In this document: positions 1-11,632 of the stretch, in pieces
How positions within the stretch are numbered: the stretch's first letter is position 1
Layout of the letters: the number at the start of each line of letters is the position of its first letter
Source of the DNA: Aurantimonadaceae bacterium
GTDB taxonomy: Bacteria > Pseudomonadota > Alphaproteobacteria > Rhizobiales > Rhizobiaceae
NCBI GenBank assembly: GCA_947474855.1
Contig: CANJKV010000020.1
Location: 1 to 33,293, forward strand
Length of the DNA: 33,293 nucleotides
Reading direction: 5' to 3'
Position numbers and translations under genes: made by a program
Notes under the pieces: model-generated
Database searches by the model: none
Told to the model about the DNA's origin: nothing
What the model saw: only the letters and a program-made list of their open reading frames with translations

Positions 1-59
1 CGATTACGCTAAGTGGTCCTCCGTGAAGTAGGCTTTTGAGCCTTTGGAGGATGCCGAGA

Positions 60-338
60 ATGCCGAGGAAGAAGCCGAGCCCGGAAGAGATCGTCGCCAA
101 GCTGCGGCAGGTGGACGTTCTCGTGTCGCAGGGTCGCCCAGTTGCCGAAGCGGTGCGCACGATCGGCGTGACGAGCTTCACCTACTATCGCTGGCGCAAG
201 GAGTATGGCGGGCTGAAGGTCGACCAGGTGAAGCGGCTGAAGGAGCTCGAGAAGGAGAACGAGCGGCTGCGCAAGGCCGTGTCGGACCTGACGCTGGAGA
301 AGCTGATCCTGAAAGAGGCTGCATCGGGAAACTGGTGA
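60..338 (+). CDS. IS3-family transposase OrfA (HTH)
   Basis: This encodes a 92-aa OrfA protein that binds the IS ends. The N-terminal half carries the helix-turn-helix typical of the family (PSPEEIVAKLRQ..., then GVTSFTYYRWRKEYGG). The C-terminal half is a leucine-zipper-like coiled coil (VKRLKELEKENERLRK) used for multimerisation. The ATG at 60 is chosen because GGAGG at 46-50 lies 9 nt upstream; the ATG at 51 directly abuts that Shine-Dalgarno and is too close. The stop codon TGA (336-338) overlaps a GTG that can start OrfB. Confidence 0.88.
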   Translation: MPRKKPSPEEIVAKLRQVDVLVSQGRPVAEAVRTIGVTSFTYYRWRKEYGGLKVDQVKRLKELEKENERLRKAVSDLTLEKLILKEAASGNW

Positions 339-1228
339 GCCCCGCCCGGCGTCGCAGATGCATCGAGCACGTCATGAAGAAGTATGGCGTGAAGGAGCGT
401 TTGGCGTGCCGGGTCCTGGGGCAGCACCGGTCAACACAGCGCAAGGCGCCCAAGGGGCGATCTGACGATGCGGCGCTGACGGCCGACATCATCGAGTTGG
501 CGACGCAGCATGGACGCTACGGATATCGTCGGATCACGGCCTTGCTTCGCGAGGCTGGCTGGCTCGTGAACGTAAAGCGCGTCGAGCGCATCTGGCGGCA
601 GGAAGGCCTGAAGGTGCCGGCCAAGCAGCCCAAGCGCGGCCGGCTCTGGCTGAACGACGGCTCGTGCGTTCGGCTTCGGCCGGAGCGACCCAACCACGTC
701 TGGTCCTATGACTTCGTGGAGGATCGCACCCATAATGGCCGCAAGTTCCGCATGCTGAACATCGTCGATGAGTTCACCCGCGAGTGCCTGTGCATCCGGA
801 TCGATCGGAAGCTGAAATCCTCGGACGTCATCGACGTCTTGTCGGATCTGTTCATCCTGCGTGGTGTGCCGGGTCACATCCGCTCCGACAACGGTCCCGA
901 GTTCATCGCCAAGGCGGTTCGCGAGTGGATCACGGCGGTCGGCGCCAGGACCGCCTTCATCGAGCCAGGCTCACCTTGGGAGAACGGCTATTGCGAGAGC
1001 TTCAACTCCAAGCTCCGGGACGAACTCCTGAACGGTGAGATCTTCTACAGCCTCGCCGAGGCCCGGATCGTCATTGAAGGCTGGCGGCAGCACTACAACA
1101 CGCGACGCCCACATTCCGCCCTCAGCTACAAACCGCTGGCACCAGCCGTCGTGCCGTGGCCGGCTGCGCCACCCCAACCCGCTTCGCCGGCCACCTCAAA
1201 CGTCGCCGACAAGCCAACCATGCATTAG
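335..1228 (+). CDS. IS3-family transposase OrfB (DDE integrase domain)
   Basis: This is the catalytic transposase subunit, about 297 aa, in the -1 frame relative to OrfA. An HTH_21-like region (HGRYGYRRITALLREAGW) is followed by an rve integrase core. Catalytic residues are visible: the first D in WSYDFVED, the second D in RSDNGPEF, and the E in YCESFN, with exactly 35 residues between the second D and the E, the DD(35)E spacing of the family. The C-terminus has the usual HYNTRRPHSALSY motif. OrfB can be made from the GTG at 335, which overlaps the OrfA stop as GTGA, or as an OrfAB fusion by -1 frameshifting near GAAAGAG (311-317). The sequence alone does not decide between these. Confidence 0.9.
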   Translation: MSPARRRRCIEHVMKKYGVKERLACRVLGQHRSTQRKAPKGRSDDAALTADIIELATQHGRYGYRRITALLREAGWLVNVKRVERIWRQEGLKVPAKQPKRGRLWLNDGSCVRLRPERPNHVWSYDFVEDRTHNGRKFRMLNIVDEFTRECLCIRIDRKLKSSDVIDVLSDLFILRGVPGHIRSDNGPEFIAKAVREWITAVGARTAFIEPGSPWENGYCESFNSKLRDELLNGEIFYSLAEARIVIEGWRQHYNTRRPHSALSYKPLAPAVVPWPAAPPQPASPATSNVADKPTMH

Positions 1229-1609: not shown

Positions 1610-2024
1610 TTCCTTTAACAACGCCGCAATTTCCGAGGCTGACCCTCATAGAGTGACCGCTCTCATCCCGCGGAACGTCGGTTCCGTCGGCAGGCAAAGC
1701 CGAGTAGGCAAGAGCGGATCGCTGGAGCCGATCACCTTTAGCGAGTTGAAGAAGCGGCGGACACAGACCCGAAGCCTACGACGTTTATCCGACTGGCCAC
1801 TGACTCCCAAAGCTGTGGACGCCGCTGGGGACTGTCTCGCAAGCGTCGAAGGGCTAGGATGACTACGCCCGGCATTTCCCTGCGGGCGGCGTGCACCAAG
1901 CCTTCACAGCCGCTGTTCATCGTCCATCCCGAGTGGGGATCACGATCAGGTCGTCTATGGCCGTTGACGCGAAGCTGGCGGCCGAACAAAGCACGTGGCT
2001 CCAGGTCTTCCTGAGGAGGGCGGC

Positions 2025-2477
2025 GTGACCAACGGTGCCACGGACGATCTCCGCGACTTTTCTCTTTTCACTCACGAGTTCGATCCTGTGAGCAAAACGG
2101 AAAATCCAAAAGGGCCGGTCGGCCGGCGGAAGGCGCCGCTAATGTCGTGCGTCCCGTCGACGAGCTTGGCCTGGCTGGCCGAGGCGCACCTCGACGGCCA
2201 CCGGAAATACGGGCGCCTCAACTGGCGGCAGGATCCGATCCGGATAACCGACTATTTGGACGCCCTCGACCGCCACCTCTTGGCTTTCGCGGAAGGGGAG
2301 CGGTGCTCTCCGGACAGCGGGTTGCCGCACCTGGCGCACATCATGGCAGGCGCGAGCATCCTTCTCGATGCCAAGGCCTGCGGGACGCTGATCGACGACA
2401 GGACCGAAGGCCGGCCGGACGCGTTCGCGGCGGTGCAGGCGGACGTCCTGGAGATCAGGGATCGCCGGACGGTCTGA
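2025..2477 (+). CDS. DUF5664 / dATP-dGTP diphosphohydrolase N-terminal-type protein
   Basis: This 150-aa protein carries the DUF5664 pattern: KYGRLNW, then a stretch where a tyrosine and an RHLLA-type helix follow (YLDALDRHLLAFAEGE), then DSGLPHLAHIMAGASILL. The family is common in phages and is described as the N-terminal domain of dATP/dGTP diphosphohydrolases, so a role in adjusting dNTP pools is the family inference. The GTG at 2025 is chosen because AGGAGG (2014-2019) sits 5 nt upstream; another GTG at 1995 is in frame but lacks such a site. The first 50 residues have no recognisable motif. The gene is convergent with the 2481-2759 gene, 3 nt apart. Substrate is not shown by the sequence. 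Confidence 0.72.
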   Translation: MTNGATDDLRDFSLFTHEFDPVSKTENPKGPVGRRKAPLMSCVPSTSLAWLAEAHLDGHRKYGRLNWRQDPIRITDYLDALDRHLLAFAEGERCSPDSGLPHLAHIMAGASILLDAKACGTLIDDRTEGRPDAFAAVQADVLEIRDRRTV

Positions 2478-2949: not shown

Positions 2950-3468
2950 ATGCTGAGCACCCTTGCACGACTGACGCTGACGGCGACGTCGATCGCTCCC
3001 GTCAGCATCACCTATGCGTGGGTGTCCTTCTACCAGGGCGCCCATGTGGTCGCGGCCGTGTCGCTGTCGGTCGCGATCGTCCTCGTGATCGTCTGCGTCT
3101 TGCTCCTGCGGTACGTCAGGACGCAGGCGGAGGCACTCCGCTTCAAGGCGCAGTCTCTGGAGCCGGCCGATGGCGAGAACATCGGCTTCATGCTGCTCTA
3201 CCTTCTTCCGCTCTTCACCGACCGGATCGACACGCTGAACTGGGAGCTGTGGATCCCGCTGATCGGCATCTTTTCCGTGGTGGTCGGCACGGGATACGGG
3301 TATCACTTCAACCCGCTGCTCGGCCTGCTCCGCTGGCATTTTTACAAGGTCACGTCGGAAGACGGCGTGACCTACGTCCTCATCACGAAGAAGCACCTGC
3401 GCACCGCTTCCGGCGTGCACCGGGTCGCGCAGCTGACCGAATACATCCTCATCGATCTGGAAGGATAG
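2950..3468 (+). CDS. kwaA: Kiwa anti-phage protein KwaA (membrane subunit)
   Basis: This is a 172-aa protein with four hydrophobic segments at about residues 8-28, 32-54, 77-90 and 100-118, consistent with the four-helix inner-membrane KwaA subunit of the Kiwa system. Conserved-looking stretches are GENIGFMLLYLLPLF and YGYHFNPLLGLLRWHFYKV, followed by a cytoplasmic tail (GVTYVLITKKHLR). In Kiwa, KwaA works with the DUF4868 protein KwaB, which here begins 3 nt after the kwaA stop. Start ATG 2950 follows a purine-rich GGATGGTGAT stretch. The LexA box ending at 2932 suggests DNA-damage induction. Identification rests on topology plus the KwaB neighbour, not on alignment. Confidence 0.82.
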   Translation: MLSTLARLTLTATSIAPVSITYAWVSFYQGAHVVAAVSLSVAIVLVIVCVLLLRYVRTQAEALRFKAQSLEPADGENIGFMLLYLLPLFTDRIDTLNWELWIPLIGIFSVVVGTGYGYHFNPLLGLLRWHFYKVTSEDGVTYVLITKKHLRTASGVHRVAQLTEYILIDLEG

Positions 3469-3471
3469 CAG

Positions 3472-4350
3472 ATGACGAGCCTTCTGGCCTTATGCAAGCC
3501 GCAAAACGGGCCTGTGACGGTCAAGAGGATCGAGATCTCCCAGCCCGTCCAGAACGTGATCGGCGGGATCTTCCAGCAGCAGGCCAGTGCCTTTCTGGCC
3601 GATGTGGAGGACGAGATCGCGTTCGGCGGCGACTACAAGCCGGACGCCGACGAAATCCTCGTCCTGGAGGCGCCGGGAGAGATCGAGCTGATGAAGGCGG
3701 CCGTCGACAACCCTATCGCGCTCGACACCGTCAACGCCGGCAACTTCGCGAACGAACCGATCAAGGGCGTGTTCGTGGTGGTCGGAGAGGGCGAGAACAG
3801 GCGCTACCTGATCCAGTCGTTCACCGCACAGCAGATCCTATCCCGGAACAGCCTCGCCCTGATCTTCCAGAACAACACCTTCCGCGAGCTGAGCGAGCCG
3901 TCCTTCACCCTCGACAGCAAGCTCGTGGCGATCGCCGAGAACGGGCGGCTGAAGTTCAAGAGCTTCCACTTCCTGAAGCGGATCTTCGTGCTGGAGAACG
4001 TCTATCGGGAGGCCAGCGACCAGCAGGTCGAGGCGTTCTGCGGGCATGCCAGCCTCGCCGTGGCGAACGTCGATGCGATCAAGGCGAACTCGAACCAGAT
4101 CGTCCGCCGTCTCATCCACGCGGTGCAGACGTCCAACGTGCTCGACAGGGCGACCGTCGCCACCATCCAGACGACGGCGACGAGCCTTGGCGTGGCGCTG
4201 ACGGTGGAGAACGGGCGCATCGTAGTTCCCACCGATCGTCAGCAACTCAAGGAGCTGCTGCGCTTCCTCGACGATGCGATCTACGAGGGCCCCCTGAGCG
4301 CGCAGCGCCTTCTCGCCAATTCGAAGCGGCCGTTCGGCGTCGCCACCTGA
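3472..4350 (+). CDS. kwaB: Kiwa anti-phage protein KwaB (DUF4868)
   Basis: This 292-aa soluble protein has the DUF4868 layout. An N-terminal region covers residues 1-120. Then comes FRELSEPSFTLDSKLVAIAENGRLKFKS (about 137-164), a family hallmark in which a predicted beta strand leads to an F-x-L-x-x-I-F motif (FHFLKRIFVLENVYRE, 165-180). A helical region and a final motif RFLDDAIYEGPLSAQRLLANSKRPF (264-288) follow. KwaB is the effector partner of membrane KwaA in Kiwa defence and has been linked to DNA binding. AAGGA lies 7 nt before the ATG, and the 3-nt gap to kwaA indicates one operon. The gene appears intact. No other anti-phage gene is fused to it. Confidence 0.85.
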   Translation: MTSLLALCKPQNGPVTVKRIEISQPVQNVIGGIFQQQASAFLADVEDEIAFGGDYKPDADEILVLEAPGEIELMKAAVDNPIALDTVNAGNFANEPIKGVFVVVGEGENRRYLIQSFTAQQILSRNSLALIFQNNTFRELSEPSFTLDSKLVAIAENGRLKFKSFHFLKRIFVLENVYREASDQQVEAFCGHASLAVANVDAIKANSNQIVRRLIHAVQTSNVLDRATVATIQTTATSLGVALTVENGRIVVPTDRQQLKELLRFLDDAIYEGPLSAQRLLANSKRPFGVAT

Positions 4351-4475
4351 ACAACCTGCGGAGCCGGCCGTCGCAACCGCCGGTCCCGCACGATCCAGTT
4401 TCACACGAGCACCCGTCCGTATCGAAGATGATCATCGCAACGCCGCCGGGAAGGTGGACGGGGGACGATCATACG

Positions 4476-4679
4476 ATGTCGGACGACACGCTGACCGGCC
4501 ACGTCGTGCTCAGCGGCTACGCCAGCCGCCTCTACGACGAGGCCCTCGAAGGGTGGACGCGGATCGAGAAGCGCGTCCTCGATAACAGCGGGGAGCAGCG
4601 GGCCGAGTGCTTGTGGCTGAACCCGGTCTGCGCCGAGGCGGCCGATTCAGGAGAGGTCCGGCAGCTCAGCCTCTTCTGA
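4476..4679 (+). pseudogene. C-terminal remnant of a D12-class (Dam-like) DNA adenine methylase
   Basis: The 67 residues from the ATG at 4476 match the end of phage-type DNA adenine methyltransferases: GHVVLSGYASRLYDEALEGW (the VLSGY and LYD motifs after the catalytic region), RIEKRV, then AECLWLNPVC and the terminal LSLF. The SAM-binding F-x-G-x-G and catalytic DPPY motifs are missing. The in-frame sequence before 4476 (DDHTMSDDTL) still looks methylase-like for a few residues and then becomes unrelated, about 100 bp after the kwaB stop. This is a 5' truncation. The ATG is only the first in the conserved part, so a stable protein is doubtful. Confidence 0.75.
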
Positions 4680-5297
4680 TCACTCGTCGCCGAAGGCGGA
4701 ATAAACGCCCTTCGGCGCCACCCCCGGGCACGCCTCCCACGCCGACGACCACGACACCCTCCCGGCGTCGAGGTCGAAGATCCCGAACGGCCGCCCCCGG
4801 ACCTTGCCGACCGCGATCCCCTCGACGACGCCGGCGGGCCCGAGCCTGGCGCTGCCGATCTCTGCCGTCGTCGTGAACGCACAGGCGGGCTCGGCGTCGA
4901 GGACCTGTGGGTGGTATGCCGCCCACAACACGCGCCAGGCGTCGGGGGCAGATAGCTGGATAGTCAGCTCGCAGACGAGGCGGCCGCAGTCGGCGGAATA
5001 GCGGCCGGCATAACGGTCGTCGGCGGCAGCGGGCAGCGCGAGGGCGCAGAGAAGGGTGGCGAGGATGGCTCGCATGGCGGTCTCCGGTGTCGGGGTGTCA
5101 TGACGGCGGGTCAGCGCCGTGATCAGCTCTCGCATCTCGCCGGCGACGACCTCCGCCGCGGCGATCGGCTCGATGCGCTTCTCCTCGCGCTCGGCCGGCG
5201 TCAGCGCGTCGTCGCCGGCGAGGAGGTCGCGCACGGTGAAGCTGCCGGCGGCGACGTCGCGGACTAGCGCGAGGAGAAGGGGCGACGGCACGGTCAC
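4680..5297 (-). CDS. Unknown protein with an internal signal-peptide start (last gene of AAA+ operon)
   Basis: The 205-aa frame starts at GTG 5297, overlapping the stop of the previous gene as GTGA, which supports translation from there. Residues 1-74 look helical and cytoplasmic (LLALVRDVAAGSFTVRDLLAG). Residue 75 is a second ATG (5075) preceded by GGAG at a 6-nt spacing, and from it the protein begins MRAILATLLCALALPAAADD, a textbook Sec signal peptide with an A-x-A cleavage site. The 131-aa short form would be exported and has several cysteines (DCGRLVC, PACAF, EACPG) that could form disulfides. Whether one long protein, a short secreted one, or both are made is open. I recognise no family. 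Confidence 0.6.
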   Translation of the reverse strand: MTVPSPLLLALVRDVAAGSFTVRDLLAGDDALTPAEREEKRIEPIAAAEVVAGEMRELITALTRRHDTPTPETAMRAILATLLCALALPAAADDRYAGRYSADCGRLVCELTIQLSAPDAWRVLWAAYHPQVLDAEPACAFTTTAEIGSARLGPAGVVEGIAVGKVRGRPFGIFDLDAGRVSWSSAWEACPGVAPKGVYSAFGDE

Positions 5298-5467
5298 GCG
5301 TTGTCCTCTGGTTTCTTGTCGGCGATGGCCTGCAGCCGCTCGACCACGGAGTCGGGCAGGCCCTCGGCCGAGACCGTCATCCGCAAGTCGCGCAGGATCC
5401 GGATGCCGCGCTCGCCGGCGATATGCAGCAGCCCGGCCAGGTCGGTATCGAGGACGTAGCAGGCCAT
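5294..5467 (-). CDS. Small protein of unknown function (57 aa)
   Basis: ATG at 5467 opens a 57-aa frame beginning MACYVLDTDLAGLLHIAGER and ending KKPEDNA. Its TGA overlaps the GTG of the next gene (GTGA), and it begins 24 nt after the previous stop, so it fits the operon. It contains an ordered-looking strand/helix pattern (IRILRDLRMTVSAEGLPDSVVERLQAI) and a short acidic tail. The Shine-Dalgarno is weak. No family is recognised. It is called on operon position and codon use rather than on similarity. Confidence 0.55.
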   Translation of the reverse strand: MACYVLDTDLAGLLHIAGERGIRILRDLRMTVSAEGLPDSVVERLQAIADKKPEDNA

Positions 5468-5491
5468 CTTGGTGCTTGTCCCGCCCTTGGC

Positions 5492-5608
5492 CTACAGCCG
5501 CACGACGGCAGCCGGCACATCGGCGGGCGGCTCATCGAAGGCGAGGTCGAGCCACGTCTTCCGGCTCAGCTCCCGGACCCGCCGCCGCTCCTCGTCCCGG
5601 TAGGTCAC
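5492..5608 (-). CDS. Very small protein of unknown function (38 aa)
   Basis: GTG at 5608 overlaps the TGA of the upstream gene as GTGA, and GGAGG lies 6 nt before it, an excellent ribosome binding site. The product begins VTYRDEERRRVRELSRKTWL and ends in a hydrophobic/proline tail (EPPADVPAAVVRL). It is charged and helical at the N-terminus. No family is recognised. The strong Shine-Dalgarno and the overlap are the case for it being translated. Confidence 0.5.
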   Translation of the reverse strand: MTYRDEERRRVRELSRKTWLDLAFDEPPADVPAAVVRL

Positions 5609-5895
5609 GGTCCGCCTCCGCGCATGCGCTGGACCCGCAGCGCTACCGCTTCGTCGGCCTCGGTCGGGCCCGTTTCCATCCGCTCGGCGAGGAGGCGCTG
5701 CGCCAGGGCCTCGCCGGCATCGGCACGGCGGCGGAGGCGGATCGCATCGAGGGCCGCGAGCGCACCGGCCCGCGCATTCCGGCGGACTGCAGCGGCCTCC
5801 GTCAGCGACAGGCCGAGGCGGCCGGCGAGGTCGGTCCAGCCGCCGTCGCCGTCGAGCCAGCGGTCGATGTCGTTGAGTTCGGTCGCGTCGCTCAT
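5605..5895 (-). CDS. Unknown protein (96 aa)
   Basis: ATG at 5895 follows the previous stop by 12 nt, with GGAG about 8 nt upstream. Residues 1-35 (ELNDIDRWLDGDGGWTDLAGRLGLSLTEAAAVRR) resemble a short helix-turn-helix-like fold: the pattern W-x-D-L-A-x-R-L-G-L-S-L-x-E-A resembles the LAxxLGLS helices of DNA-binding proteins. The rest is alanine/arginine-rich helix. A DNA- or partner-binding role is inference only. The stop overlaps the next start. Confidence 0.6.
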   Translation of the reverse strand: MSDATELNDIDRWLDGDGGWTDLAGRLGLSLTEAAAVRRNARAGALAALDAIRLRRRADAGEALAQRLLAERMETGPTEADEAVALRVQRMRGGGP

Positions 5896-5907: not shown

Positions 5908-6498
5908 TCAGATCCTCAGTGTCCAGGCGCTCCACCCGTCGTGCTCTGCCGCTCGCTCCCAGACGCGCAGGCCCAATCCCTCCTCGGCGACGACGATCAG
6001 CCGCAGGTCCGCCGTGCGCTTCCAGCCGTCGATCAGATCGAGCAGGTCGAGCACCGGCTCGCGGTCGTCGAAGACGTGCACCACGGCCTCCGGAGGGGTC
6101 TGCGTCGAGCGATCCAACGCGATCGCCACCTCGACGAGCCCGAGGTCGCGCAGGCGGGCGCCGGCGTCGGCGAGAGGAAGCCGGCCCTTCCGCCAGTCCG
6201 CGACGGCATCGAGGGCTGCCGAGATCCGCCGCATCTCCCGCGTTCGTGCTTCCCGATCGCTGCGCACGTCCTCCGCAGCCGCGGCGGCGAGCGCCTGCAC
6301 CGCTTCGGCGTCGACGGTTGAGGTGCGGCCGTCGCGTTGGCGAGGGTCGACGCCGGCCGAGATCGCCAGCGCTTCGATGTCCCGGCCCGTCTCCATCGTC
6401 GATCCGAGGCGGCGGGCATAGAGGAGGGTCGTCGATGCCGGGCAGCCGCGTAGCCATAGCGCGAGAACGGTGGTGTCGAGCCGGGACATGCCGCTCAC
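5908..6498 (-). CDS. Unknown protein (196 aa)
   Basis: The GTG at 6498 is preferred because it forms the GTGA overlap with the phosphoesterase stop and has GGAGG 9 nt upstream. The ATG at 6507 abuts that GGAGG, and the ATG at 6489 is 18 nt away from it. The N-terminus (LDTTVLALWLRGCPASTTLLYARRLGST) is helical. The centre (AEAVQALAAAAAEDVRSDREARTREMRRI) is a long charged helix. The C-terminus alternates strand and helix (LRLIVVAEEGLGLRVWERA). No catalytic motif or family is recognised. It is encoded directly after the phosphoesterase and may be its partner. Confidence 0.62.
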   Translation of the reverse strand: MSGMSRLDTTVLALWLRGCPASTTLLYARRLGSTMETGRDIEALAISAGVDPRQRDGRTSTVDAEAVQALAAAAAEDVRSDREARTREMRRISAALDAVADWRKGRLPLADAGARLRDLGLVEVAIALDRSTQTPPEAVVHVFDDREPVLDLLDLIDGWKRTADLRLIVVAEEGLGLRVWERAAEHDGWSAWTLRI

Positions 6499-7427
6499 GG
6501 CTTCCATCCTCCCGACAGCTCTTTCTCGTCCTCCTCATCGGTCCACAGCCGGCCGGCCGACGCCGGAAGGCCGAAATCCTCCGGGCTCTCTAACGCGTGC
6601 TCGATCGTGGCGCCGGTGTATTCCGGCCGGCGGCGGACCTCGACGACGAGGCGGCCGTCGAAAGCGGGGTTCTCGTGCTCCCACCAGCCGTGCTTTCCGA
6701 AGCCGCCCTTGCGTTCGTAGTATCCGCGGGGATTTGCCAGGATGCGGGTAGGACCAATCCAGTAGTCCTGGGGCACGTGGACGTGGCCGTGGATCCAGAC
6801 GTCAGGCGCATGGCGCAGGATCAGATCTTCGAGGTCGCTCGCATAAGCCGCGTCGAGGTGACCGCGCTTGATGCGTGGCGACAGGCTCCGGCGCGACGGC
6901 GCATGGTGCGTCACGACGACGGTCGGGCCGTCGTGCAGCGTCGAGAGGACGGACTCGATGGCGGCGCGGTGCAGGTCGTGGATGCCGGCGAAGGATGCCG
7001 GGGACGCCCACTGCTGGCGATGGTGGATCCGGCGGAAATCCGTCAGGTATTCGAGCGCTGTGTTCTGCGCCCGCCAGGCGTCGTCCGTCAGCTCGTAGTC
7101 CGTCCAGAGCGTGGCGCCGACGAAGCGGGTGCCGCCGATCACGACGGACTGTCCGGCGTCCAGGAGGTGGACGTTCGTCAGCGACGTCTTCCGGAGGAAG
7201 CGGCGGGCGCTCTTCGCCAGGTCGGACCCGTAGAAGTCGTGATTGCCCGGGACGAGCACGACGGGGATATCGCGGGGCAGATGGCGCTCGAGCCACAGGC
7301 GCACCTGGCCCTCGAGCTTGCCGCCGATGTCGCCCGCCAGGACGAGGACGTCCGCCTCGACGCCCTGCTCGAGGGCGTAGCGCATGACGTCGACGTGCAG
7401 ATCGGACAGGATCCAGAGCTTGGTCAT
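6495..7427 (-). CDS. Calcineurin-like metallophosphoesterase
   Basis: This 310-aa protein has the complete metallophosphoesterase motif set: D9-x-H11 (ILSDLHVD), G32-D33 (LAGDIGG), G61-N-H-D64, T173-H-H175 (VVTHHAPS) and G214-H-V-H217. These bind two metals and hydrolyse phosphate esters or nucleic acid/nucleotide phosphodiesters. The substrate cannot be read from the sequence. The C-terminus (NPAFDGRLVVEVRRRPEY) closes the beta sandwich, and a tail follows. No signal peptide is seen, so it is cytoplasmic. The ATG overlaps the upstream stop (ATGA) and has AGGGA 7 nt before it, within an 18-nt sequence repeated before the AAA+ gene. Operon context with an AAA+ ATPase suggests a shared task. 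Confidence 0.88.
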   Translation of the reverse strand: MTKLWILSDLHVDVMRYALEQGVEADVLVLAGDIGGKLEGQVRLWLERHLPRDIPVVLVPGNHDFYGSDLAKSARRFLRKTSLTNVHLLDAGQSVVIGGTRFVGATLWTDYELTDDAWRAQNTALEYLTDFRRIHHRQQWASPASFAGIHDLHRAAIESVLSTLHDGPTVVVTHHAPSRRSLSPRIKRGHLDAAYASDLEDLILRHAPDVWIHGHVHVPQDYWIGPTRILANPRGYYERKGGFGKHGWWEHENPAFDGRLVVEVRRRPEYTGATIEHALESPEDFGLPASAGRLWTDEEDEKELSGGWKP

Positions 7428-7651: not shown

Positions 7652-7836
7652 GCGGGCCCCCGCATCCGCTCTACGACGAGCTGCATCGCGGCGATGCCGA
7701 GGATCCGGCGGCCGTCGGCGTCGAGCTGAGACCACACCGCGATCGCTTGGTGGGCGAGTTCTGTGATGGGGATTCCCTCTGCAGCTTCGATCGCTTCGAG
7801 CCGGGCGAGGACGTCACGGGGAAGCGCCAGGATCAT
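7648..7836 (-). CDS. Small ribbon-helix-helix-like protein (62 aa)
   Basis: ATG 7836 overlaps the AAA+ stop as ATGA, and the 3' end overlaps the next ATG. The sequence MILALPRDVLARLEAIEAAE, then GIPITELAHQAIAVWSQ, follows the ribbon-helix-helix pattern: a short beta strand, LPxxxxxRL, a helix, a Gly turn, xITEL, a helix, AIxxW. It could bind operator DNA as a dimer or act as an antitoxin-like partner, but without alignment this is suggestive only. There is no separate Shine-Dalgarno, so translation probably depends on the AAA+ gene. Confidence 0.6.
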   Translation of the reverse strand: MILALPRDVLARLEAIEAAEGIPITELAHQAIAVWSQLDADGRRILGIAAMQLVVERMRGPA

Positions 7837-9503
7837 TGACGCACCGCCGAGCGCTCGCGCAGGTCGACCGTTGCCTCGACCGCGGTGCGCAGCTTGCGCA
7901 GCGATCCGCCGCCCCAGACCCGTCCGATCACCTCCAGCTCGTCGGGCGCCAGCTCGCCGAGCATGTCGACGGGCACGCCGCGCTCCAGCGCAAGGGCGTC
8001 CAGCATCTGGCCTGCGAGGGCAGGCAGGTGCTCGATTGTCGGTGTCGGCATGCGGAGGATGCGGAATCGGTCTCGGAGAGGCTCGGGGATGGTCGACAGG
8101 TCGTTGGCGGTCGCCAGGAACGAGACCATCGAGAGATTCGCCGTCGCCTCGAGCGCCGTCTCGAAATACGCGGCGGCGCTGTGCTGCTCGAGCATCGGCA
8201 GGAGGGAATGCACCAGGCTGCCGTTGTGCGGCGACTGGCCCGACTTCTCCAGCTCGTCGAGGACTACGACGGGGTTTGCCTTTCCCGACGTGCGGATCAG
8301 CTCGAGCGGCGTCGATGCACGGCGCGACGACCATTGCGCCGGGGTGCCGCCGAAGGACCCGTCGGCCACAGATGCGCAGGGATAGACGATCGAGGGCAGG
8401 CCGAGGTAGCCCGCGATCGACGTCAGGAGGCGCGTCTTGCCGCTGCCCGGTTCGCCGACGAGAAGGGTCGGGCGCAGGCGGGCCGGCTTGCCGACTCGAA
8501 GATCGCCGAGGATGCGCTCGACGACCTCGCGGGCATGCGGCCAGCCGACCGACAGGTCCTCCGCGATCACGGCCGGATCCTTGGCGACAATGAGGGGCGT
8601 GTTGTGCCCGCGGATCGTCTCGAAGCTCTTCGCCAAGGCGCGGCTGTCGGCCGTCGTTCCCTCCGGAATCTTCTTCAGGACGACGAGGTATGGTCGGCGC
8701 TCGTGACGCGCCGCCCGGCGCTTCTCCTCCTCCTGCCGGCGGGCCTGCTGGTCGGCCTCGTCGATGTAATGCTCCATCAGGTCGATGTCCGCGGGCGGAT
8801 TGGGGTCGGGCTGCGGCTTGCGCACCTCGACGATCTGCGCCACCGGATGCGCCAACTTGACCAGCGCCGGACCCTTCAGCTGCCCCTCGGCCGCGGCTTG
8901 CGCTGCATCGACCCGTCCGGACCAGAAGTCGTGCTCGGCAATGCGGACGGTGAGGACGCGCAGCTCGTCGAATCCCAACTCCAGGATGATGTCCTGGTAG
9001 GCCAGGACCCAGGCGTTCGCGTCGTCGAGGTGCGGAAACGAACCGGATCCGAGCGCCGTTCGGTATGCGATGGCGTGGAGATCGTCGTCGAGGGAGTGGC
9101 GCTCGAGCAGCCAGCGGCGGGCGTCGCGAGCGCCGAACACGGCCGCGTACCATGCAGCGCGGTCGACGAGCGGTTCGCAGACGACGCTGTCGCGGTCCGT
9201 GCACAGACGCCAGAGACGCACGGCGGTCCCGTGCTCCGGGGCAACGCCCAAGTAATCGAGGGCTCGACGGACTTCATCCGGCAGGTCGAGGCCGGACGAC
9301 TTGGCGACGTAGAGCCCGATGTCGGCGAGGAGGTCGTCGCGGAGCGGGGGGTAGCCGCGCATCAGTTCGCCGGGCGACGGCGGACGGGTGAGGCGAACGC
9401 CAGCGATCTCGTTGGCGCGCTTCTCGCCGGCGTCGATGAAACGCGATGCCGAAAACTTCAGGGTCTCAGCGTCAAAATTCCACGCAAACTTGCTGCCGGG
9501 CAT
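7833..9503 (-). CDS. Lon-like AAA+ ATPase without protease domain
   Basis: From ATG 9503 this is a 556-aa protein. Residues 1-270 are a family-unknown N-terminal region ending in a charged helix (ADQQARRQEEEKRRAARHERR). The AAA+ domain follows, with Walker A GEPGSGKT (350-357), Walker B VVVLDELEK (412-420), sensor 1 N in FLATAND (462-468), arginine finger region PLRDRFR (473-479), and sensor 2 in GGSLRKLR (532-539). The order and the sensor-2 GGxxRxLR resemble the ATPase of Lon-type proteases, but no Ser-Lys protease domain follows. It should be a motor or remodeller in the cytoplasm. ATG 9503 is chosen over 9530 because GCGAGGGAAGC stands before it, as before the phosphoesterase. It heads the nine-gene operon. 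Confidence 0.82.
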   Translation of the reverse strand: MPGSKFAWNFDAETLKFSASRFIDAGEKRANEIAGVRLTRPPSPGELMRGYPPLRDDLLADIGLYVAKSSGLDLPDEVRRALDYLGVAPEHGTAVRLWRLCTDRDSVVCEPLVDRAAWYAAVFGARDARRWLLERHSLDDDLHAIAYRTALGSGSFPHLDDANAWVLAYQDIILELGFDELRVLTVRIAEHDFWSGRVDAAQAAAEGQLKGPALVKLAHPVAQIVEVRKPQPDPNPPADIDLMEHYIDEADQQARRQEEEKRRAARHERRPYLVVLKKIPEGTTADSRALAKSFETIRGHNTPLIVAKDPAVIAEDLSVGWPHAREVVERILGDLRVGKPARLRPTLLVGEPGSGKTRLLTSIAGYLGLPSIVYPCASVADGSFGGTPAQWSSRRASTPLELIRTSGKANPVVVLDELEKSGQSPHNGSLVHSLLPMLEQHSAAAYFETALEATANLSMVSFLATANDLSTIPEPLRDRFRILRMPTPTIEHLPALAGQMLDALALERGVPVDMLGELAPDELEVIGRVWGGGSLRKLRTAVEATVDLRERSAVRQ

Positions 9504-9510
9504 GTGGAGA

Positions 9511-9528
9511 GCTTCCCTCGCTGCGTCC
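9511..9528 (-). repeat. 18-nt translation-leader repeat, copy 2 (before AAA+ gene)
   Basis: Identical to 7432-7449 and ending 7 nt before the AAA+ ATG at 9503. Its position supports that start. A shorter relative, GCGAGGGATGC, precedes the HTH regulator ATG (9972). Confidence 0.8.
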
Positions 9529-9569
9529 ACGATGCGCCAGAAGACGCTGTGCGGAACGAGGGAGACCCT

Positions 9570-9612: not shown

Positions 9613-9972
9613 TTACGCTTCAGGCTCGTCGCGTCGCGGGCCGGGACGCGGAGGCGGCTCCTCCGAAAGCCCCTTCGAGAACTCCCGGATCCGCAGCCTC
9701 AGGAGATTCTCCGGAACGCCACGGCTCTTGAAGTCCTCGACCAGATCCTCGAGGTCCTCCATCAGCTCGTCGCAGAGCGGAGCCAGGTGATCCAGCTTCT
9801 CCAGCACCGCCGGCGGATACGTGGACGCCCCGCTGAGCCACCGCTCGGCGTTCCGTTTCGACACGCCGAGCCATGTCACGAGGCGGTCGGGGAAGGCGGC
9901 TCCGACGACCCGGACGATCAGCGCTTCGATCTCGTCGAGCGGCCTCGAATTCTCTCGTTTACGGTCTTCCAT
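9613..9972 (-). CDS. HTH transcriptional regulator of the island
   Basis: This 119-aa protein starts at ATG 9972, after GCGAGGGATGCC. Residues 15-50 include VVGAAFPDRLVTWLGVSKRN, then AERWLSGASTYPPAVLEKL, a Cro/CI-type helix-turn-helix in which the recognition helix follows GVSKRNAERW. The C-terminal half is an acidic helix (DELMEDLEDLVEDF), likely for dimerisation. A further in-frame ATG at 10041 is possible but has no comparable site. It is divergent from the excisionase-like gene and sits directly upstream of the AAA+ operon, the position of an element repressor. Targets are inferred from position. Confidence 0.68.
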   Translation of the reverse strand: MEDRKRENSRPLDEIEALIVRVVGAAFPDRLVTWLGVSKRNAERWLSGASTYPPAVLEKLDHLAPLCDELMEDLEDLVEDFKSRGVPENLLRLRIREFSKGLSEEPPPRPGPRRDEPEA

Positions 9973-10084
9973 GGCATCCCTCGCCGGCGTCGACTTACGA
10001 TCCTTCGCGTCTCCGACCATGCTGCGAACGGCGTTAACCATACGTTACGAACCGGCTTGTCCGATCTATTCCCGACAGCCGACA

Positions 10085-10121: not shown

Positions 10122-10511
10122 ATGTTCCAGCTCATCGTCGGCGAGGTCGACCTGGGCATTCCCGACTTCGACAAGGTCGGGCCCGACCAGCTTCTGACAC
10201 TCGAACAAGCCGCGTGGATCCCGGAACTCGGGGGCCACATCACACCCAAGATGATGCGCACGGCGATGCATGCCGGGCGCCTACCCGCGCACCGCCTGGG
10301 ACGGACGATCTACGTCACCCGGGCCGGTGTCGAACAGTGGAGAAACACATGCCTCGTCACCGCGAACCCGCCCGGCTCGTCCTCGAACCCGCCCGCCACC
10401 ACAAGAGCGGCCGCCTCAAGCACGAGGCGTTCTGGCAGCTCCGCGACGGCAGCAAGAAGCTCAGCACTGGATGCGGCCAGGATGACCGTGCAGGGGCTGA
10501 GGGGTTCCTGA
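10122..10511 (+). CDS. Excisionase-like HTH protein (Xis)
   Basis: This 129-aa frame has a winged-helix/excisionase-type domain at residues 22-75: LLTLEQAAWIPELGGHITPK leads to MHAGRLPAHRLGRTIYVTRAGVEQW, with the typical G-R-T-I-Y-V-T-R-A wing. Such proteins bend att DNA and bias integrase toward excision. After residue 76 the sequence becomes Ser/Ala/Arg/Thr-rich with no pattern, and this tail overlaps the integrase gene by 163 nt (10349-10511). The functional part is therefore probably only the first 76 residues. The ribosome binding site lies in a hairpin. The divergent regulator is 149 bp upstream. Confidence 0.72.
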   Translation: MFQLIVGEVDLGIPDFDKVGPDQLLTLEQAAWIPELGGHITPKMMRTAMHAGRLPAHRLGRTIYVTRAGVEQWRNTCLVTANPPGSSSNPPATTRAAASSTRRSGSSATAARSSALDAARMTVQGLRGS

Positions 10512-11479
10512 GGGAATACCTCGCGAAGCAGCACGCCAAGGCGCCGAAGGTGAAGCACAAGGCCGCCGCCGAGTGCCCGATCCCGGACGTCATCAGCCAC
10601 TACGCCGTCCACAAGACCAGGAAGCCCGTCGCCCGGCCGAAGGAGCTGGCGGCGCGCCTCGAGACGCTGCTCGCGTTCTGGGGCGACAAGACGCTCGCCG
10701 ACGTCGACGAGGACACCTGCTACGAATACGCCGACTTCGTCGGCTCCGACAGCGCGGCGAGGCGGCAGCTCGAGGACTTCAAGGCGGCGATCAAGGCCTA
10801 CTGCCGCGCCGGCCTCTGCCGCGAATCGGTCGTCGTCACCCTGCCGGACAAGCCGGACGGCCGCGTCGAGTTCTTCACCCGCTCCCAGCTCGCGGCGCTC
10901 CTCTGGCACTGCTGGCGGACCCGGCGCTACCAGGGCGAGACGGCGACCACGGACCGGCCGATGCGCCACCTCGTGCCTTTCATCCTCACCGCCGTCTATA
11001 CCGGCACCCGGTCGCGGCGGATCTGGCGGGCGAGCTACGTCCGCCAGGAGGGTCGGCCGTGGATCGACCTGGAGGGCGGCGTCTACCACCGCCTCGCGAC
11101 CGGCGAGAAGGCGCCGAAGAACAAGCGGGCGGCTTCGATCCGTCTCCCGCCGAGGCTCCTCGCCCACATGCGGCGGTGGGCCTGCAAGCGCACCTACCTC
11201 GTCGAGCTGTACGGCAAGCCCGGCGATCCGAAGAAGAGCCTCGCCGGCGCGATGGAGGCGGTGTTCGGCGAGCGCCACGCGTTCGTCCGCCACACGTTCC
11301 GCCACACGGCGGCCACCTGGCTGCTCTGGGCCGGCGTGAAGGCGGAGGACGTCGCCGCCTACCTGTCGATGACGAAGCAGATGCTGTTCGACACCTACGG
11401 CCACGACCACCCGGACGCGGACTGGGAGGTGGGCGAGGCGATCTCGAAGGGCAAGGCCGGGCGCACGAAGAAGCGCTGA
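10349..11479 (+). CDS. int: Tyrosine recombinase / site-specific integrase
   Basis: This 376-aa integrase has an N-terminal arm-binding region (FWQLRDGSKKLSTGCG) and a core-binding SAM-like helical domain at about residues 85-165. The catalytic domain shows R221 (VYTGTRSRR), K259 in KNKRAASIRLP, the H315-x-x-R318 box (VRHTFRHTAATW) and the nucleophile Y350 (FDTYGHDHPD). The second-histidine region is variant (AYLSMTKQ). ATG 10349 is chosen because GGAG stands 7 nt upstream; the longer in-frame start at 10214 reads through the xis gene out of frame and is rejected. It ends 78 bp from the tRNA-Val 3' end, its presumed attachment site. A terminator follows. Confidence 0.93.
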   Translation: MPRHREPARLVLEPARHHKSGRLKHEAFWQLRDGSKKLSTGCGQDDRAGAEGFLREYLAKQHAKAPKVKHKAAAECPIPDVISHYAVHKTRKPVARPKELAARLETLLAFWGDKTLADVDEDTCYEYADFVGSDSAARRQLEDFKAAIKAYCRAGLCRESVVVTLPDKPDGRVEFFTRSQLAALLWHCWRTRRYQGETATTDRPMRHLVPFILTAVYTGTRSRRIWRASYVRQEGRPWIDLEGGVYHRLATGEKAPKNKRAASIRLPPRLLAHMRRWACKRTYLVELYGKPGDPKKSLAGAMEAVFGERHAFVRHTFRHTAATWLLWAGVKAEDVAAYLSMTKQMLFDTYGHDHPDADWEVGEAISKGKAGRTKKR

Positions 11480-11557: not shown

Positions 11558-11632
11558 TGGTGGGCGCGACAGGGATCGAACCTGTGACCCCCTCGGTGTG
11601 AACGAGGTGCTCTCCCGCTGAGCTACGCGCCC
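11558..11632 (-). tRNA. tRNA-Val(CAC)
   Basis: On the minus strand a 75-nt tRNA is encoded, starting GGGCGCGTAGCTCAGCGGGA and ending CGCGCCCACCA with the CCA in the gene. The acceptor stem GGGCGCG/CGCGCCC pairs fully. The anticodon stem CCTCG/CGAGG holds the loop TTCACAC, giving anticodon CAC (valine, GUG codon). The T-arm has GGTTCGATCCC. Its 3' end faces the integrase, so it is the likely attB of the island and has been kept intact by the integration. Confidence 0.95.

Follow-up and report, generated by a model that had tools for sequence, protein, structure and literature searches.

The window analyzed here is the whole 33,293-nucleotide stretch of DNA from an Aurantimonadaceae bacterium. 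It carries a phage integrase gene (10214-11479, forward strand; phrog_1, with PF00589 below its cut-off) adjoining a gene for tRNA-Val (cac) (11558-11632, reverse strand), the presumed attachment site; an integrase beside a tRNA gene is an arrangement that marks prophage-borne genes. Judged from its sequence, the region represents a prophage-like element at a tRNA-Val gene. The syntenic region of Antarcticirhabdus aurantiaca R10 (G001), the one other genome of the genus among those listed, also lies near a tRNA-Val gene, with a different anticodon. The contig ends within the element, near a transposase gene (44-1228, forward strand; rve and HTH_21 domains), which we take to be of IS3 type and which is perhaps the reason why the contig breaks there.

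A run of genes on the reverse strand includes an AAA ATPase (7833-9530; PF00004) and, downstream of it, a calcineurin-like metallophosphoesterase of phage type (6495-7427; PF00149; phrog_1649, E = 2.8e-51). These are followed by a 199-amino-acid frame (5908-6507), which matched neither a family within the limits applied nor anything in the R10 region, and by two small genes, referred to here as X1 (5605-5895; 96 amino acids, 60% identical over 93 amino acids to its R10 counterpart) and X2 (5294-5608). The highest identity in the comparison between the window and R10 (82% over 107 amino acids) was found for a 142-amino-acid protein encoded at 9613-10041 (reverse strand), which matched no Pfam family and gave only a weak PHROG row.

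Next in the run lies a frame of 205 codons (4680-5297, reverse strand), reading from GTG 5297 to a TGA at 4680. The GTG overlaps the stop codon of the preceding frame (5608-5294), and an SD-like AGAGGA is found 5' of it. Residue 75 of the same frame is an ATG at position 5075 with a GGAG at -10, so that the frame holds two in-frame starts, each with a plausible Shine-Dalgarno sequence. As read from the sequence, ATG 5075 is followed by a Sec-type signal peptide (MR + AILATLLCALALP + AAA|DD): from residue 75 onward, there are a charged n-region, a hydrophobic core, and an A-x-A at the predicted cleavage site. The core consists of 13 hydrophobic residues, and its hydropathy of 2.38 is the maximum of the entire 205-amino-acid frame. 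The nested ATG with its own GGAG and a classic signal peptide, to which an earlier note on this DNA had drawn attention, was thereby confirmed at position 5075. The part downstream of this ATG (4680-5075) encodes 131 amino acids with a signal peptide of ∼18 residues, while the part upstream (5076-5297), starting with the GTG, comprises 74 codons and reaches the exported gene without a stop codon of its own.

The two parts resembled each other in composition, with a third-position G+C of 0.92 in the 74 upstream codons and of 0.89 in the exported part, read in one frame. When codon scores were compared among the three reverse-strand frames, the 205-codon frame was preferred from ∼5280 on, although the preference was weak over parts of the exported gene, and the upstream frame remained coding-like right up to ATG 5075 with no visible switch within the merged frame. 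The mere length of the upstream open run is weak evidence, since at least 74 open codons were also present upstream of 9152 of 20,000 random positions on both strands of this G+C-rich window.

The earlier note had also described GTG 5297 as coupled to the previous gene. The overlap with the stop codon of X2 bears this out, but X2 is itself broken by a TAG at 5494-5492, so that ribosomes coupling from X2 to GTG 5297 would already have stopped. At the position of this TAG, the R10 orthologue has a tryptophan, and codon scores were coding-like on both sides of it. The R10 orthologue alone counts as evidence here: tryptophan was also seen in the X2 genes of L028 and L032, but these were found with a motif that required tryptophan and are therefore no independent count. 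Since R10 has a tryptophan in place of the stop, decay or an assembly error is possible, and the source genome is a draft of 415 contigs. The merged frame might likewise have originated by mutation, prophage decay, or assembly error.

The earlier note had proposed comparing homologues for separate short and long versions of the protein. A homologue profile built from two rows (the window and A. aurantiaca R10) found matches in 7 of 394 family genomes, the source genome included, each from profile position 1. An antisense row in the source genome (L024) was dropped as chance, as were weak rows with E values of 0.01 to 0.1 in nine genomes besides the source genome and G001, plus two in the source genome. 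In a 397-genome sample at the order level, no homologue was found beyond the source genome, a result that may not reach wider than the family, to which all 21 rows listed belonged. In contig scans, homologues turned up at six loci of Aureimonas, two of which belong to A. endophytica, in A. aurantiaca R10, and on a viral contig (L026). After four loci found both ways had been merged, 10 distinct homologous loci remained (L022, L023, and L026 to L033): seven in Aureimonas or Antarcticirhabdus records, two in other genomes of the family, and one on the viral contig.

All 10 loci start at the codon aligned with residue 75, nine with ATG and one (L029) with a TTG that was assigned by alignment, the search match there having begun later. 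A GGAG precedes the start in every case, at -10 or -11 in nine loci and at -14 in L022. The exported protein was 55 to 68% identical to eight of its relatives and 43% and 24% (L023) identical to the other two, and codon position 3 held more of the differences than either other position in all 10 comparisons. An N-terminal extension alignable with the 74 amino acids of the window was found in none of the 10 loci. The open run upstream of the start was as long as 77 to 136 codons in three of them, yet seven loci had no in-frame start codon within this run and L026 had one just 4 codons away; in L032 and L022, in-frame starts occurred farther up, only within a longer ORF of a different reading frame. 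Consistently, BLAST of the whole window frame against nine loci (L023 left out) aligned 109 to 134 columns, which is about the exported part by itself. In the same nine loci, the distance from the end of the closest upstream ORF, assigned by eye, to the exported start was 0 to 44 nt.

Queried separately, the 74 amino acids matched the source genome only among the 394 family genomes. The entire 205 amino acids retrieved nothing from phages or plasmids, and neither did the R10 protein from phages. Used as single sequences, the 205 amino acids found nothing in viral or genome contigs and the 74 amino acids nothing in viral contigs; these scans are weak negatives, because the genome scan missed loci that were later found with an alignment.

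A phosphoesterase homologue was located upstream of the exported gene in eight of the nine related loci compared, L022 being the exception; the AAA protein was present in five of the nine, the loci being cut at their flanks. The exported gene is thus a regular neighbor of the phosphoesterase and no oddity of this window, contrary to the earlier view that an exported product in an AAA+/phosphoesterase operon is unexpected.

In R10, the phosphoesterase gene is followed by X1, X2, a 62-amino-acid frame with its own stop, a spacer of 44 nt, and the exported gene. The SD-like site and the GTGA overlap that precede the 62-amino-acid frame are also kept in the window. Homology between this protein and the 74 amino acids was rejected, as their alignment score of 17 was reached by 1981 of 2000 shuffles. 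Because the two proteins are not alike, a lost stop can be placed by position but has no orthologous stop to point to. We read the 74 codons of the window as the likely positional counterpart of the R10 gene, not as its proven orthologue.

An AlphaFold2 model of the exported protein, based on eight sequences, had a mean pLDDT of 85.8 and eight strands. Confidence was low over residues 1 to 20, as commonly seen with signal peptides, and reached 87 to 96 in ten-residue blocks of residues 21 to 130. Cysteines 30, 35, 65, and 116 were invariant in seven of seven aligned sequences, the most distant included, and in eight of eight of a second set. Neither Pfam, NCBIfam, and PHROG searches, which gave chance-level rows only, nor a sequence search of the PDB, which returned no match better than chance level, assigned the exported protein to a family, even though the phosphoesterase upstream is itself a member of phrog_1649. 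PADLOC reported nothing for the 74-codon part or the exported part, and none of 521 pdb hits and none of 747 viral hits in Foldseek reached E ≤ 0.001. The rows listed by VIA-align (Z = 6.5 to 9.3) mixed many barrel families, the best (Z = 9.3) being a designed barrel. Small secreted or lipoprotein barrels such as TP0435 (4u3q), SP_0198 (3ge2/5cyb), YedD (4hwm), and Brucella PhiA (7dpy) fall in the same size class (Z = 6.8 to 8.2 over 78 to 83 residues), but they share only 8 to 12% identity with the exported protein, at Z values in the range that VIA-align calls common. Unlike the lipoproteins among them, the exported protein has no lipobox visible by eye. It is therefore described here as a predicted 8-stranded beta barrel, and no named family is claimed.

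Computation thus gave a start position common to all homologues, an unconserved N terminus, a shared Shine-Dalgarno sequence, two genes in R10, and a barrel model. Most likely, a separate gene for an exported protein begins at ATG 5075, and the 74 codons are most likely a different, local small gene whose frame continues into it. Our preferred interpretation is that two neighboring prophage genes appear to have had their frames merged in this genome, the upstream gene having no stop; we put its probability at roughly 0.87. The downstream gene would be translated from ATG 5075 by means of its own GGAG, and the resulting 131-amino-acid precursor would be exported by Sec and cut after AAA, with the mature protein presumably forming a small beta barrel in the periplasm, probably with disulphides. 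The upstream gene, from GTG 5297, would specify a small cytoplasmic protein, unrelated and variable from locus to locus. Lacking a stop, its frame would run in phase into the exported gene, and the 205-codon frame would be a by-product of this merging, whether by mutation or by assembly error. Given the coding-like upstream frame and the SD-like AGAGGA, and provided that the sequence is correct, a fused 205-amino-acid product may be made as well. Of the two explanations offered by the earlier note, the fusion of two genes through a lost stop is in line with the two genes of R10 and with the coding-like usage of the 74 codons, while a single gene with two differently located products finds no support as something conserved.

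As a special case of this reading, the true upstream gene might stop just before the exported gene, like its counterparts in relatives, the merged frame arising from an assembly or sequencing error or from a decaying prophage end. This is conceivable, perhaps one chance in three in feel, and would be in keeping with the coding-like usage on either side of the X2 stop and with the fragmented draft assembly. A TGA in another frame, moreover, ends 22 nt before ATG 5075; in four relatives (L026, L028, L031, and L032), the end of the upstream ORF is within two nucleotides of this place, 23 to 24 nt before the exported start. The part of the element covered by the window further contains a transposase gene and a methyltransferase remnant. 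On the other hand, the codon scores prefer the merged frame with no visible switch, and the exported gene is intact.

Bacterial N-terminal proteoforms that arise from in-frame alternative starts have been described for PagC and OmpX (PMC11005335). The window is similar in having two in-frame starts that differ by a Sec signal peptide and possibly different compartments for the products; however, the long form of PagC and OmpX has the signal peptide and the short form does not (PMC11005335), whereas in the window it is the short form that has it, and none of the 10 homologous loci shares the window's N-terminal extension. A lineage-specific gene of this kind, with GTG 5297 giving a 205-amino-acid cytoplasmic or signal-anchored form and ATG 5075 the exported form, would account for the SD-like sequences at both starts and for a frame that is coding-like over its whole length. 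We consider it improbable: in addition to the missing extension and the restriction of the 74 amino acids to one genome of 394, eight of the 10 loci offer no in-frame start beyond 4 codons upstream and the other two, L032 and L022, do so only inside the ORF of another frame. A cytoplasmic form would also have no evident role if the cysteines are paired. Homologues that all start at residue 75, with the first 74 codons unconserved, are the outcome that the earlier note had itself named as refuting its proposal; that one gene makes two products with different locations was accordingly not supported as a conserved device.

Slightly less probable still is a fusion caught at its birth, in which the recent merger would yield two differently located products from a single frame: the exported barrel on its own and a 205-amino-acid protein in which the upstream protein is displayed, by way of a signal anchor, N-terminal to the barrel. 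It is very unlikely that the exported gene is an inert relic with nothing made from ATG 5075: the neighboring X2 is broken, but the frame itself is intact and 55 to 68% identical to eight of its ten relatives, codon position 3 holds more differences than either other position, and start position and GGAG are kept.

Under the preferred reading of two adjacent genes, annotation by the longest frame would give one 205-amino-acid protein and hide the signal peptide. Separating the two exposes a small family of exported, cysteine-bearing predicted barrels encoded downstream of a phosphoesterase in Aureimonas and Antarcticirhabdus elements, with no match in the libraries searched. From their location and fold class, the exported barrels could tentatively be envelope factors expressed by the lysogen, for example, acting in superinfection exclusion or inhibiting a periplasmic or murein-active enzyme; this guess is doubtful and poorly grounded, because the fold matches are weak. 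Their genes may accordingly be candidates for a part in phage exclusion or in lysogenic conversion.

Convergent with the exported gene, and apparently within the prophage-like element, a Kiwa defence pair that is complete by profile was identified at 2950-4350 (forward strand). It consists of KwaA (2950-3468; PADLOC, E = 1.5e-71) and KwaB (3472-4350; PADLOC, E = 1.3e-108; PF16162). The window also encodes a protein with a dATP/dGTP diphosphohydrolase N-terminal domain (1995-2477, forward strand; PF18909, E = 4.2e-24). Beside the Kiwa genes, a C-terminal piece resembling a D12-type adenine methyltransferase is found at ∼4470-4679 (forward strand). Similar frames occur at the same place in L027, L029, and L032, those of L027 and L029 matching PF02086, and since three related loci have such frames there, Kiwa may have replaced a methyltransferase.
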